A stretch of 64,000 nt of DNA. Source: Deltaproteobacteria bacterium (GTDB lineage: Bacteria; Desulfobacterota; Desulfarculia; Desulfarculales; Desulfarculaceae). The translations under genes and the position numbers were made by a program. How positions within the stretch are numbered: position 1 is the first letter of the stretch; each line of letters begins with the position of its first letter. Shown here one piece after another: positions 32,193 through 43,561 of this stretch. The stretch spans positions 1-64,000 of the forward strand of contig JAJZPI010000001.1 in NCBI GenBank assembly GCA_021811275.1, given 5' to 3'. The notes beneath the pieces were generated by a model. It was not told the DNA's origin. It was given only the letters and a program-made list of their open reading frames with translations, and searched no databases.

Positions 32193-33248
32193 GTGAGCCA
32201 GAAGCGCCGAGCGCTCATCACCGGCATCACCGGCCAGGACGGGGCCTACCTGGCCCGCTTCCTGCTGGAAAAGGGCTACGAGGTCTACGGGGCCTTCCGC
32301 CGCCTGTCCACCCCCAATCTGTGGCGCCTGCAGGCCTTGGACATCTTCCATCAGGTGCAGCTCATACCCATGGAACTGGTGGATTCGGCCTCCATGACCG
32401 GAGCCCTGGTGGCCAGCCGGCCTCACGAGGTCTACAACCTGGCGGCCCAGAGCTTCGTGGGGGCGAGCTTCGAGCAGCCGGTGGGCACCGGCCAGGTCAC
32501 CGGCCTGGCGGTCAGCCGCCTCCTGGAATGCATCCGCCACGTGGATCCAGGCATCCGCTTCTACCAGGCCAGCACCAGCGAGCTTTTCGGCAACAGCACC
32601 CAGGTGCCCCACAACGAACTGACGCCCTTCGAGCCGGCCTCGCCCTATGCCGCGGCCAAGCTCTACGGCTACTGGATTACCCGCATCTACCGCGAGGCCT
32701 ACGACCTCTTCGCGGTCAACGGCATCCTCTTCAACCACGAGTCTCCCCTGCGCGGCCTGGAGTTCGTCACCCGCAAGATCACCAACGCCCTGGCCAAGGT
32801 CAAGCTGGGGCTGGAGAGCAAAGTCAGCCTGGGCAACCTGGAGGCCAGCCGCGACTGGGGCTTCGCCGGCGACTACGTGGAGTCAATGTGGCTCATGCTC
32901 CAGCAGGAGGCCCCCGGCGACTATGTCATCGCCACCGGCGAGACCCACACCGTGCGCGAATTCTTCACCCTGGCCTGCGAGATCGCCGGTCTGGACCCGG
33001 CCGGCATCCTGGAGGTCAACCCCAAGTTCATGCGTCCCTTAGACGTGGACCTGCTCCTGGGCGACTCCGGCAAGGCCCAGCGCATGCTGGGCTGGCAGCC
33101 CCGGGTGACCTTCCGCGAACTGGTCAGGATCATGATGGAGACCGACCTGGCGCGCTGGCACCGCTGGCAGAAGGGCGAGCAGTTCCCCTGGGACGCCTTC
33201 AACTATCCCTCGGAGATGAACATCCTCTCCCGCGCCGTGAAGAGTTAG
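32193..33248 (+). CDS. gmd: GDP-mannose 4,6-dehydratase
   Basis: [81 protein letters not shown] start. Confidence 0.93.
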
Positions 33249-33261
33249 GGGAGGAGGCGCC

Positions 33262-33984
33262 GTGCTCCTGTCCATCGTCATGCCGGTCTTCAACGAGGAG
33301 GGCTTCCTGGAGGAGATCGTCGCCCGTGTCCAGGCCGTGGACCTGGGGCCGCTGGAGCGCGAACTGATCATCGTGGACGACTGCTCCAGCGACAAGAGCC
33401 CCCAGATCCTGGCCGCCATGGAGGGCCAGCGGGCTGTGCATCCCTCGGCCCGCCCCTTCGACCGGCCCATCAGGGTCAAGCGCCATGCCGTGAACCAGGG
33501 CAAGGGCGCTGCCCTGCGCACCGGCTTCGCCGAGGCGGCCGGCGACCTGGTGCTCATCCAGGACGCCGACCTGGAATACGACCCGGAGGACTACCCCAAG
33601 CTCCTGAACCCCGTGCTCCGGGGCAAGGCCGAGGTGGTCTACGGCAGCCGCTTCACCGGCGAGCGCCGCAACATGTTCTTCCATCATTGGGTGGGCAACA
33701 AGTTCCTAACCCTGTTCACCAATATCCTGTTCAACACCACCCTGAGCGACATGGAGACCTGCTACAAGCTCTTCACGCGCCAGACGCTGGCCGGCATTAT
33801 GATCAAGAGCGACCGCTTCAACTTCGAGCCCGAAATCACGGCCAAGATTCTCAAGAAGGGCATCCGCATCTACGAGGTGCCCATCAGCTACACCGGCCGC
33901 GAGTTCCACGAGGGCAAAAAAATCACCTGGCGCGACGGCTTGGCCGCCCTATGGGCCCTGGCCAAGTTCCGCTTCAAGGACTGA
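33262..33984 (+). CDS. Glycosyltransferase family 2 (dolichol-phosphate mannosyltransferase-like)
   Basis: [45 protein letters not shown]. Confidence 0.92.
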
Positions 33985-33996
33985 TCCCCACATCCC

Positions 33997-35001
33997 ATGT
34001 GGAAGCATTACCTCATAGGCCTCGTGATCAGCGTGGCCGCCGGCTGGCTCTTCCTGCGCTTCGTGGACCTTGAGCAGATGGGCCGGGCCCTGGCCGCCAT
34101 GAACCCCTGGTGGCTGCTGCCCTGCTTGGCCTTCTACGTCATGTCCTACGTGTTCCGCACGCTGCGCTGGCACTACCTCATGCGCCCGGTCGCCAAGGTG
34201 CGCTTCCAACCTCTGTTCGCCGCGCTACTCATCGGCTTTCTGGGCAACAACCTCCTGCCCGCCCATCTGGGCGAGGTTGTGCGGGCCTATGTGCTGGGCC
34301 GCTCGGAGAAGGTGAGCAAGTCCTCCGTCTTCGCCACCGTGGTGCTGGAGCGGGTCTACGACGGCCTCACCGTGCTCTTTCTGCTCATGATCGTGCTGCT
34401 GTTCATGAAACTGCCCGAGGGCGGGGGCCCGACCGGCGGCGGCATCACCGTGGCCAATCTGCGCGCCGCGGGTTGGCTGGGCCTGGCCGTTTTCGCCGGG
34501 CTCATGATCGGCCTGCAGCTTTTGCGCTGGCAGCGCCAACGCATGCTCAAGCTGCTGGCCTTTTTTCTCAAACCCCTGCCCGCGCGCCTGAGCGAACGCG
34601 GGCTGAACATGGCCGGCTCCTTCGCCGACGGGCTTTCGCTCACCCGCGCCACCGACTTGCTCTGGATAGTGGCTCACTCTCTGCTGACCTGGGTTTTCCT
34701 GGGGCTCTACGCCTGGAGCCTTTTTCCGGCCTTCGGGCTCAAGCTGGGCCTAATGGCCGGCCTGCTCATGGAGGTGGTGGTGGCCCTGGCCCTGTTGATC
34801 CCCTCGGCCCCGGCCTTCCTAGGCACCTTCCACTTGGCCGCGGCCTTCACCTTGGGCTATCTGGGCGCCGACGCCGGCCAGGCCGGCAGCTACGCCATGG
34901 TGCTCTGGCTTGTGCACTTCGTCTCCACGACCGGCATCGGCCTGGCCCTGCTGTGGCGGCAGGGCCTGGGTTGGCGGGCCCTGCGGGGCCGCGAGGACTA
35001 G
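33997..35001 (+). CDS. Lysylphosphatidylglycerol-synthase-TM / flippase-like (UPF0104-type) membrane protein
   Basis: YVFRTLRWHYLMRP, LLIGFLGNNLLPAHLGEVVRAYVLGRSEKVSKSSVFATVVLERVYDGL. Confidence 0.87.
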   Translation: MWKHYLIGLVISVAAGWLFLRFVDLEQMGRALAAMNPWWLLPCLAFYVMSYVFRTLRWHYLMRPVAKVRFQPLFAALLIGFLGNNLLPAHLGEVVRAYVLGRSEKVSKSSVFATVVLERVYDGLTVLFLLMIVLLFMKLPEGGGPTGGGITVANLRAAGWLGLAVFAGLMIGLQLLRWQRQRMLKLLAFFLKPLPARLSERGLNMAGSFADGLSLTRATDLLWIVAHSLLTWVFLGLYAWSLFPAFGLKLGLMAGLLMEVVVALALLIPSAPAFLGTFHLAAAFTLGYLGADAGQAGSYAMVLWLVHFVSTTGIGLALLWRQGLGWRALRGRED

Positions 35002-38320: not shown

Positions 38321-38892
38321 TCCCCAAGCCGCGCCAGCCACCCCCCGCCTCGAAAAATATTTTTCCTACCTGCGCCCGGAGTATTGCTTTTTCCTTGCAT
38401 TGGCTTTAGATTTCGCTGCAACATGAGACGCTTTGGGTGCGCCTAATTAAATACGACAGGGCAGGGGAAAAACCCAAAGATTCAGTTAAAAGAATAAAAA
38501 GGTCTGGTTTCAAGGAATAAAGATCCATCGGTTCCGTTTCGTATTATTGAATATTCATATCAAAGACTTATGATATGCACCCCATGATGGGGCTTGGCAG
38601 AGGTCAAAAATACGGAGCCATGGACAGGAACAATGAGTTCCCCGCGATACGAGCTGCTGATAAATAGGCGCTTACTTTTCAAGATGTTAGTTTTTTGCCC
38701 GGATTTTGCTAGAAGACGGACCGGATTGATTTCAACGGTCCTAACCAATAACCAGGGATAGGCAGCGCCAGACCGACGAGCCGTTATTTTTGCCAAGGCT
38801 TGGTTCTACTGCGCCAGGGGCGGGATGACGGAACGCTGGTCTGCTGCCTTGCTGCTGCAAAAAACTTCTGTTGAGGATTAGGTCTCCCGAAC

Positions 38893-40941
38893 ATGAAACC
38901 CGCTTTCGAGCAAAAAGATCAGGAGGCGGCCGCCGAGCCGGCGGCTAAACGCCTTTCCTTGGTTGCTCCCGGCCAGGCGACCTGCGCCCTGTCCGCCTCG
39001 CCCAAGGGCCGTGCCTTAAAGATCGGGGCGTTTCTAGGCCTGCTGGCCCTGTCCTGCCTGGCCGCCTATCTTGGTATGGCCGACGGCGGGGCCTGGTTGA
39101 CCGGCTCCCTGCCCAACTTCTGGTCGCGCATCATCGCCCAGGTCGGGCAGGTCGTGCTGGTGCTCAACGTGCTGGCTTTGTTATGGCGCATCTACCTGGT
39201 CCTGACCTACAAGCCGGTGCCCGAGTGCGCCGTGGGCGAGCTGCCCTCCTTGACCGTGGTCATCCCGGCCTACAACGAAGGCCGGCAGGTGGCTGACACC
39301 ATGTTCAGCGTGGCGGCCAGCGACTATCCGGCCGACAAGCTCCAGATCATCGCCGTCGATGACGGCTCTCAGGATGACACCTGGCTTTGGATGCAGCGGG
39401 CCAACGCCGAGATGCCCGGACGCTTCACCCTCATCCGCCAGCCCCGCAACATGGGCAAGCGCCACGCGCTCTACGAGGGTTTCCGGCAGAGCGTGGGCGA
39501 GTTCCTGGTGACCATCGACAGCGACTCCATGATCGAGCCGCCGACCCTGCGTCGCCTGGTGAGCCCCATGGTCAAGGACCAGGTGGTGGGCGGCGTGGGC
39601 GGCAACGTGCGCGTGCTCAACATGAAGGCAGGCCTCATCCCCCGCATGATGGAGGTGGCTTTCACCTTCGGCTTCGATTTCCTGCGCGCCTCGCATAGCC
39701 GGGTCAACACCGTTATGTGCACCCCCGGCGCGCTCTCGGCCTACCGCAAGAGCGCCGTGATGCCCGTGCTGGACCAGTGGCTAAACGAGACCTGGCTTGG
39801 CAAGCCCTACCGCATCGGCGAGGACCGCTACCTGACCAATCTTATCCTGCGTCAGGGCTACCATGTGCTTTTCCAGAGCAACGCCATGGTTTTCACCAAC
39901 GTGCCCGTCAAATACAAGGGCCTGGTGAAGATGCTCATGCGCTGGGCGCGCAGCGACATCCGCGAATCCATCGACATGAACGGCTTCCTGTTCAAGAAGT
40001 TCCGCCGTAGCTCGGCCCTGGGCGCGCGCATCAACCTGCTCTTGAGCTGGGTGGACATGACCGTCTGCCAGGTGCTCATGGTCAGCGGCATGATCTCGCT
40101 CTTGACCCTGCCGCCGGTGGTGGCCCTCTACACCCTTATCGGCGCGGCGGTGGTGGGCCTGGTGCCCATGACGGTCTACCTGATCCGTCATCGCAGCCCG
40201 CGGGCCCTGTGGGCCATCCCCTACAGCGTGTTCTACGTGGCGGCCCTGGCCTGGATCCCGGTGTACGCCATCGTCACCGTGCACAAGTCCGGCTGGCTCA
40301 CCCGCCAGATCAAGCCCCAAGCCAGCCGGCGGCCCTGGCTGGCCATGGCCCGCTTCGCCCCGATCTATGCCACCGCCGGCATCGTGGCCGTGTTGGTGGG
40401 TTCGGGCGCCTCGCTTTATACCGCCGGGAACAATACCCCAGCGCCCTTGACCCAGGTTGCCTCCTCCGACCAGGCCGGCCTGGGCTTCAAGCTCGCCAGC
40501 TCCGGCTCCGACTCATCGAAGGTCCAAGGCGAAGCCCCCCGTTGGAGTCTTTCCGCCGCCCGCTCCAGCCTGGACCAGGAGGCCGGACTTATCAACCTGG
40601 AGGGGGTGGAGCTGGTCCTTTATCAGAGGGACGGCAACAAGATGCGCTTCCACGGCGATCGGGCTGAGTACGACCCCAGCGACCGCTCGGTAACCCTGGA
40701 GGGCAATGTCAGGGGCGTGACCACCAACGGCATGTTCCTGACCACCAAGTCCCTTTCCTACTCCGAGGCCGACAAGCTGGTGGAAACCGACGATGACGTG
40801 GTGCTTACCGGCCAGGACTTCAAGTTCAAGGGCCGGGGCATAACCATGGACATGGCCAAGAACCGCACCGTTTTCAAGAAGGCCTCATCCTCGCGGGTGA
40901 CCGCCGTCATGGGCCAGCCAGCCCGGGCCGCCACCATGTAA
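38893..40941 (+). CDS. Processive family-2 glycosyltransferase (synthase-like) with C-terminal LptC-like domain
   Basis: VVIPAYNEGRQVADTMFSV, IIAVDDGSQDDTW, TIDSDSMIEP, IGEDRYLTN, MRWARSDIRE; C-terminus INLEGVELVLYQRDGNKMRFHGDRAEYDPSDRSVTLEGNVRGVTTNGMFLTTKSLSYSEADKLVETDDDVVLTG. Confidence 0.85.
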   Translation: MKPAFEQKDQEAAAEPAAKRLSLVAPGQATCALSASPKGRALKIGAFLGLLALSCLAAYLGMADGGAWLTGSLPNFWSRIIAQVGQVVLVLNVLALLWRIYLVLTYKPVPECAVGELPSLTVVIPAYNEGRQVADTMFSVAASDYPADKLQIIAVDDGSQDDTWLWMQRANAEMPGRFTLIRQPRNMGKRHALYEGFRQSVGEFLVTIDSDSMIEPPTLRRLVSPMVKDQVVGGVGGNVRVLNMKAGLIPRMMEVAFTFGFDFLRASHSRVNTVMCTPGALSAYRKSAVMPVLDQWLNETWLGKPYRIGEDRYLTNLILRQGYHVLFQSNAMVFTNVPVKYKGLVKMLMRWARSDIRESIDMNGFLFKKFRRSSALGARINLLLSWVDMTVCQVLMVSGMISLLTLPPVVALYTLIGAAVVGLVPMTVYLIRHRSPRALWAIPYSVFYVAALAWIPVYAIVTVHKSGWLTRQIKPQASRRPWLAMARFAPIYATAGIVAVLVGSGASLYTAGNNTPAPLTQVASSDQAGLGFKLASSGSDSSKVQGEAPRWSLSAARSSLDQEAGLINLEGVELVLYQRDGNKMRFHGDRAEYDPSDRSVTLEGNVRGVTTNGMFLTTKSLSYSEADKLVETDDDVVLTGQDFKFKGRGITMDMAKNRTVFKKASSSRVTAVMGQPARAATM

Positions 40942-40984: not shown

Positions 40985-41018
40985 CGGCCGGTCCCAATCA
41001 GGACCGGCCGTTTTTTTT
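40985..41018 (+). terminator. Rho-independent terminator
   Basis: CGGCCGGTCC-CAATCA-GGACCGGCCG followed by T8. Confidence 0.93.
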
Positions 41019-43203: not shown

Positions 43204-43561
43204 GGGGGCGACATGGTTTCGACGGGGATGGTTGCGGTCCAAGTTGCATGTCGGGGGTCTCTCCGGCCCGTAACCCGGGGGGAAAAAAAGTAAGCGCAGA
43301 CGATTACGCTTACGCCGTAGCCGCGTAAATAGGCTACCGTCCGCCCTGCCCGCTTCCGCGGGGCAGGAGCCGGGCGCCGATTAGCGGAATAGGGAACGGA
43401 CGCCGCCTCGCAGGTCCGGGACCGAAAACAAATGGGAGGCTGGCCAGTCGGGCACCCTGTCCGTGGGGGGCGCGAAAGGCGAGATCAAAGCACGGAATAA
43501 GCATGTAGAAGCTTGGGCCAAAGATCTTCGGACGGGGGTTCGATTCCCCCCGCCTCCACCA
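43204..43561 (+). ncRNA. ssrA: Transfer-messenger RNA; tag ORF 43296-43328 encodes ADDYAYAVAA*
   Basis: 5' GGGGGCGACATGGTTTCGACGGGGAT; 3' GGGTTCGATTCCCCCCGCCTCCACCA; pairing acceptor stem; tag reading frame ends in AA-TAA. Confidence 0.97.

Follow-up and report, generated by a model that had tools for sequence, protein, structure and literature searches.

Within the window, the whole 64,000-nucleotide stretch of DNA analysed here, a single open reading frame with an ATG start encodes a protein of 682 amino acids in which a family 2 glycosyltransferase (GT2) synthase is fused to a complete LptC, consisting of a transmembrane (TM) helix and a periplasmic jellyroll (Table 1). The synthase occupies about the first 472 residues and the LptC portion starts straight after a conserved WLTR motif, the order in the fused proteins being WLTRQ, a short unconserved linker, the TM helix and the jellyroll. 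The full-length AlphaFold2 model showed a mean pLDDT of 80.6.

Table 1. Features of the fusion gene, its product and the adjoining non-coding DNA (aa, amino acids).
Feature	Position in window	Strand	Evidence
572-bp non-coding leader 5' of the fusion gene	38321..38892	+	
CDS of the fusion protein (HAS/NodC-type GT2 + LptC)	38893..40941	+	ORF; Pfam; NCBIfam
N-terminal membrane helices, aa 44-62 and 87-105	39022..39207	+	Hydropathy; AlphaFold2 helices 39-61 and 76-105
GT2 catalytic domain, aa 118-353	39244..39951	+	Pfam; motif positions and conservation
GT2 motifs DDG (aa 156-158), DSD (aa 209-211), GED (aa 309-311) and MxxRW (aa 347-351; M replaces Q of QxxRW)			
Synthase C-terminal membrane/interface helices (hydrophobic stretches, aa 380-463) and SGWLTRQ motif (aa 466-472)	40030..40308	+	
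LptC-type N-terminal TM helix, aa 484-502	40342..40398	+	Hydropathy; AlphaFold2
LptC beta-jellyroll, predicted periplasmic, aa 549-669	40537..40899	+	Pfam/NCBIfam; AlphaFold2; fold search; profile match to PDB LptC
Intrinsic-terminator-like hairpin with T-run, immediately 3' of the fusion gene	40985..41010	+	

Pfam analysis of the window assigned the neighbouring genes to TauE, a DUF202-like protein, RlpA and HU. The fusion gene looks monocistronic, with the ordinary lptC-lptA-lptB cluster located elsewhere, and the hairpin at its 3' end suggests that it is not co-transcribed with the downstream rlpA gene. Two relatives of the genus (G013 and G015) have a gap of comparable length after the same DUF202-like gene. 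Alignment of the leaders revealed no clear conserved RNA element, and Rfam returned no match in the leader, its sole match in the window being a tmRNA gene (43204-43561) that adjoins the HU gene and carries the tag ADDYAYAVAA. At 32193-34998, some 4-7 kb 5' of the fusion gene, a GDP-mannose 4,6-dehydratase-like gene is found near a flippase-like (TIGR00374) membrane protein.

In the synthase portion, Pfam GT2 domains were detected at amino acids 118-353 with scores of 88-89 bits, and the best NCBIfam GT2 model was NodC (TIGR04242), with a score of 184.7 bits that lies below the equivalog cut-off of 550. The closest solved structures by sequence were hyaluronan synthases (HAS), which also headed the fold search carried out with the full AlphaFold2 model, followed by cellulose and chitin synthases. 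The top HAS matches returned TM-scores of 0.60-0.66 (by target length), in a comparison where the GT2 family stops at or near WLTR and HAS has two more helices. The DDG, DxD, (T/G)ED and RW motifs of the core are invariant in nearly all relatives; the QxxRW motif is incomplete, reading MxxRW in all 20 members aligned, which comprise the fusion protein and its nearer homologues, and this HAS/NodC-like subfamily seems uncharacterised. The earlier note had described the first 500 or so residues as a processive GT2 with TM helices: the domain, its motifs and the helices were all found, while the processivity of the enzyme, as well as the identity and the fate of its glycan, are properties that we infer.

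The end of the synthase is well marked in the family. Of the unfused members checked, four distant ones end exactly after WLTR and others a few dozen residues later. The in-frame stops encountered in many unfused relatives were the ordinary stop right after WLTR in the four that were checked; a GT2 frame ending at a WLTR-stop is seen in the distant Desulfobacterota loci L116, L117, L118 and L119. In the sequence alignment, the WLTR of the fusion protein falls where hyaluronan synthases carry a WGTR-type motif, after which the chlorovirus enzyme has further TM helices. Since the LptC helix replaces these further helices behind a motif at the WGTR-type position, the jellyroll is predicted to be periplasmic, as in ordinary LptC, the orientation of the fused anchor from cytoplasm to periplasm being deduced from HAS topology. 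Unfused paralogous GT2 genes also occur in Desulfarculaceae genus g4 (L025, L027, L028, L030 and L031) in a conserved neighbourhood that includes a protein of about 120 amino acids (no Pfam match, tested in L025), a divergent sigma-54 response regulator, radical-SAM lysine-aminomutase-like and D-Ala-D-Ala-ligase-like ATP-grasp proteins, and a GNAT acetyltransferase.

The C-terminal portion was identified by both profile and fold searches. Pfam LptC (PF06835) matched amino acids 549-663 with 54.3 bits (cut-off 21) and the NCBIfam LptC equivalog (TIGR04409) matched amino acids 517-663 with 60.5 bits (cut-off 38). AlphaFold2 modelling of amino acids 473-682 from 31 aligned sequences predicted a single helix followed by a jellyroll, the latter at pLDDT values of 94-98. 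When this model was submitted to Foldseek, the LptC structures 6mit_C, 4b54 and 3my2 ranked at the top and LptA lower, and VIA gave Z scores of 16.0-16.7 to four LptC entries (6mjp_C, 6mit_C, 4b54 and 3my2) versus 14.9 for the best LptA. A plain sequence search of amino acids 485-682 against the PDB found no match and a profile search alone succeeded, the profile of fused and native domains matching LptC structures from several bacteria with the TM segment included. Profile scores and fold ranking thus rule out a generic OstA/LptA domain, and the earlier reading of the last 130 or so residues as LptC-like is borne out and extended, as the fused unit also carries LptC's own N-terminal anchor (amino acids 484-502 by hydropathy, 481-501 in the full model).

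Residues of known relevance were then compared with E. coli LptC. In known structures the LptC TM helix is located at the lateral gate of LptB2FG, and E. coli G21 is reported to contact LptG (PMC6744409). The corresponding residue of the fusion protein, G503, lies just past the TM helix and is kept in four of the five fused rows. G640 aligns with E. coli G153 and is kept in all four fused proteins that reach this position; the title of PDB entry 4b54 calls the G153R mutant of LptC inactive. The position of E. coli G56 is occupied by Glu547 in the fusion protein and by glycine in G013 and G017, the importance of both G56 and G153 being in part presumed from E. coli work.

The genome that contains the window keeps a complete ordinary Lpt system, with one LptF/LptG pair, an lptC-lptA-lptB cluster and one LptD-type frame. 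The fused module is therefore an extra LptC besides the native one, with which its domain shares 31% identity, and the fusion is ruled out as the sole LptC of the organism. No second dedicated Lpt set was found in this genome. A weak third LptF/LptG-like frame of 336 amino acids (G000:C49:4772-5644; L061, L062) occurs beyond the normal pair.

Relatives have unrelated gene neighbours and, both in the window and in those relatives that were examined, the fusion is not flanked by any LptA-, LptD- or other export-like gene. LptC-family jellyrolls are known to handle the acyl chains of lipid A, not glycan chains. The new polysaccharide export route proposed in the earlier note is possible but finds no support, in view of the lack of export-like partner genes, the single ordinary Lpt set and a jellyroll known for acyl chains. 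Passage of a polymer through the jellyroll finds no support here either, as there are no dedicated LptA/LptD-like partner genes. A true new export branch could also be imagined, with a GT2 that produces a glycan on a lipid or alters LPS and an LptC module that hands this glycolipid over to the LptA/LptD bridge. The jellyroll is by family a lipid carrier, and synthesis and the first bridge module would reside within one chain; however, the chain extruded by HAS/NodC-type enzymes is free and calls for no lipid carrier, there are neither partner genes nor a second Lpt set, and the Lpt bridge extracts its substrate via an ABC transporter that the fusion does not replace. We consider such a hand-off highly unlikely.

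The distribution of the fusion was investigated at increasing distance. Among 63 genomes of the class, LptC matches in long non-LptD frames occurred only in the window genome, G013, G017, G018 and G002, weak-match frames of 529-1309 amino acids having been counted as LptD by size and partial match. In addition, G016 bears a truncated C-terminal piece of this kind of fusion and the copy of G015 is interrupted by the contig end within the TM helix. G014, a 99% complete genome of the same genus as the window genome, shows no copy. All carriers belong to three genera of Desulfarculaceae, with none in the other relatives examined, and named records include Desulfarculus sp., Desulfarculales MAGs and the isolate Desulfocarbo indianensis. 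The GT2 was present at E <= 1e-90 in 39 of 395 sampled Desulfobacterota genomes, and in this sample no GT2 alignment outside Desulfarculaceae extended into the LptC jellyroll. Conserved GT2 peptides searched against 84,980 species genomes led to 18 loci, one of them (L058) without a readable full frame, and LptC was found only in the Desulfarculales loci. The survey therefore recovered the same fusion in further Desulfarculaceae assemblies, as a rare form of a GT2 that is widespread without LptC. Its recurrence in independent assemblies of three genera rules out an assembly chimera. No paper joining an LptC domain to a glycosyltransferase or cellulose synthase was found, and the architecture appears undescribed in the literature searchable here, which excludes most subscription journals.

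Phylogenetic analyses placed the fused LptC domains in one clade (99/100), two fused rows lying on long branches, and set fused and native Desulfarculaceae LptC apart from other Desulfobacterota LptC (99/99). The fused GT2 cores likewise formed one clade (90/90). As judged from these trees, the data fit one lptC duplication and one fusion inside Desulfarculaceae, which would have been followed by loss or decay.

Selection on the different parts of the protein was evaluated by dN/dS (omega) estimates with the NG86 method. When the window genome was compared with G013, identity was 49% for the fused and 53% for the native LptC domains, with an omega of 0.46 in both cases. These values indicate purifying selection that preserves the module in the genus about as stringently as an LptC in working order. 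The same comparison gave an omega of about 0.3 for the GT2 core and about 1 for the linker, and across genus g1 the fused domain showed 0.39-0.52 versus about 1-1.5 in the adjoining linker. Decay or strong divergence was observed in other carriers. The copy of Desulfocarbo indianensis (G002:C222; L023:7758-9488) encodes a 576-amino-acid protein whose LptC module is truncated mid-domain with an omega of about 1, and no frameshift restoring the domain was found downstream in any frame; this organism represents a natural case of LptC module loss with the GT2 retained. The G018 copy shows only 33% identity in the LptC domain and the TM glycine is absent.

The truncated Desulfocarbo copy, the very divergent G018 copy and the absence of the gene from G014 would all suit a neutral or decaying fusion, in which LptC was appended by accident and has little function. 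This explanation is distinctly unlikely, as it is at odds with the constraint measured in genus g1 against its own linker, with an omega identical to that of native LptC and with the retention of the whole LptC fold in the AlphaFold2 model. Being rare, conserved within the genus and under selection, the fusion is probably functional.

A function could be exerted with no contact to the Lpt machinery: the LptC module may have been converted into a periplasmic accessory of the synthase, where it would stabilise the enzyme or else bind or guide the glycan as it emerges. In the predicted model the module lies directly behind the extrusion side of the HAS-like synthase, it has strongly diverged from native LptC, and most relatives have a GT2 that is complete in the absence of such a module; this role would parallel the periplasmic parts of the cellulose, alginate and PNAG systems. 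We regard it as unlikely all the same, since the constraint equals that of native LptC, the domain still scores above the NCBIfam LptC equivalog cut-off, and the role would be a novel one for a jellyroll whose known ligands are acyl chains.

The reading that we favour, and to which we give about an even chance, is that the LptC module serves as the means by which a surface-glycan synthase docks at the Lpt bridge already present in the cell. A complete HAS/NodC-type GT2 would have gained a duplicated Desulfarculaceae LptC, anchor and jellyroll together, by one gene fusion. The TM helix and jellyroll would then let the synthase join or adjoin the bridge, with LptB2FG in the inner membrane and LptA in the periplasm, and glycan synthesis and extrusion would occur at the point where LPS leaves the inner membrane. 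Binding of the module to LptFG or LptA is the step that we infer. In favour of docking, the module scores as LptC, includes a gate-type TM helix and largely keeps the glycines aligned with G21 and G153; the fused clades are of single origin, omega equals that of native LptC with a linker at about 1, and the native lptC and LptF/G are retained. Against it count the low identity to the genome's own LptC, Glu547 at the G56 position, the divergent G018 copy, the truncated Desulfocarbo copy and the absence from G014. Docking at the existing bridge is more economical than a new polysaccharide export route. It is more doubtful that the fusion replaces LptC altogether in a subset of bridges, its TM helix sitting at the LptB2FG gate and its jellyroll handing on to LptA. 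If true, some of the LPS export machinery would contain a capsule- or matrix-type glycan synthase as a built-in subunit, and glycan would be produced in direct coupling to the places where LPS is exported.

The export of LPS and the synthesis of surface polysaccharides are regarded as the work of separate machines. That a HAS-like synthase is covalently joined to an extra LptC, and that this link is under selection, implies that physical coupling of the two is possible, provides an example of LptC duplicated and redeployed as a module, and offers a handle for asking whether Lpt bridges organise other envelope processes.

Compared with known systems, the C-terminal module resembles LptC (PF06835/TIGR04409) in its fold, its single N-terminal TM anchor and its scores above the curated cut-offs, and clusters with LptC of the same bacterial family; unlike LptC, it is not encoded with lptA/lptB, sits at the C-terminus of a glycosyltransferase and coexists with a separate ordinary LptC. 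LptF and LptG also join a jellyroll to a multi-TM inner-membrane protein, but they are ABC transporter subunits, whereas the membrane part of the fusion is a glycosyltransferase. Class-I hyaluronan synthases (CvHAS, XlHAS1) and NodC share with the synthase half the DDG, DxD, E-D and RW motifs, two N-terminal TMs and a WGTR-like WLTR, HAS being the best solved-structure match by sequence and fold and NodC the best NCBIfam model; in contrast, the present family has M for Q in QxxRW, its unfused members have no TM helices past WLTR, and the GT2 scores far under the NodC equivalog cut-off. Finally, BcsA-BcsB, Alg8-Alg44 and PgaC with PgaA/PgaB likewise combine a GT2 synthase with a physically attached periplasmic domain; the fusion differs from them in its periplasmic part, which is LptC, and in that neither an outer-membrane porin gene nor a gene for a periplasmic partner lies nearby.
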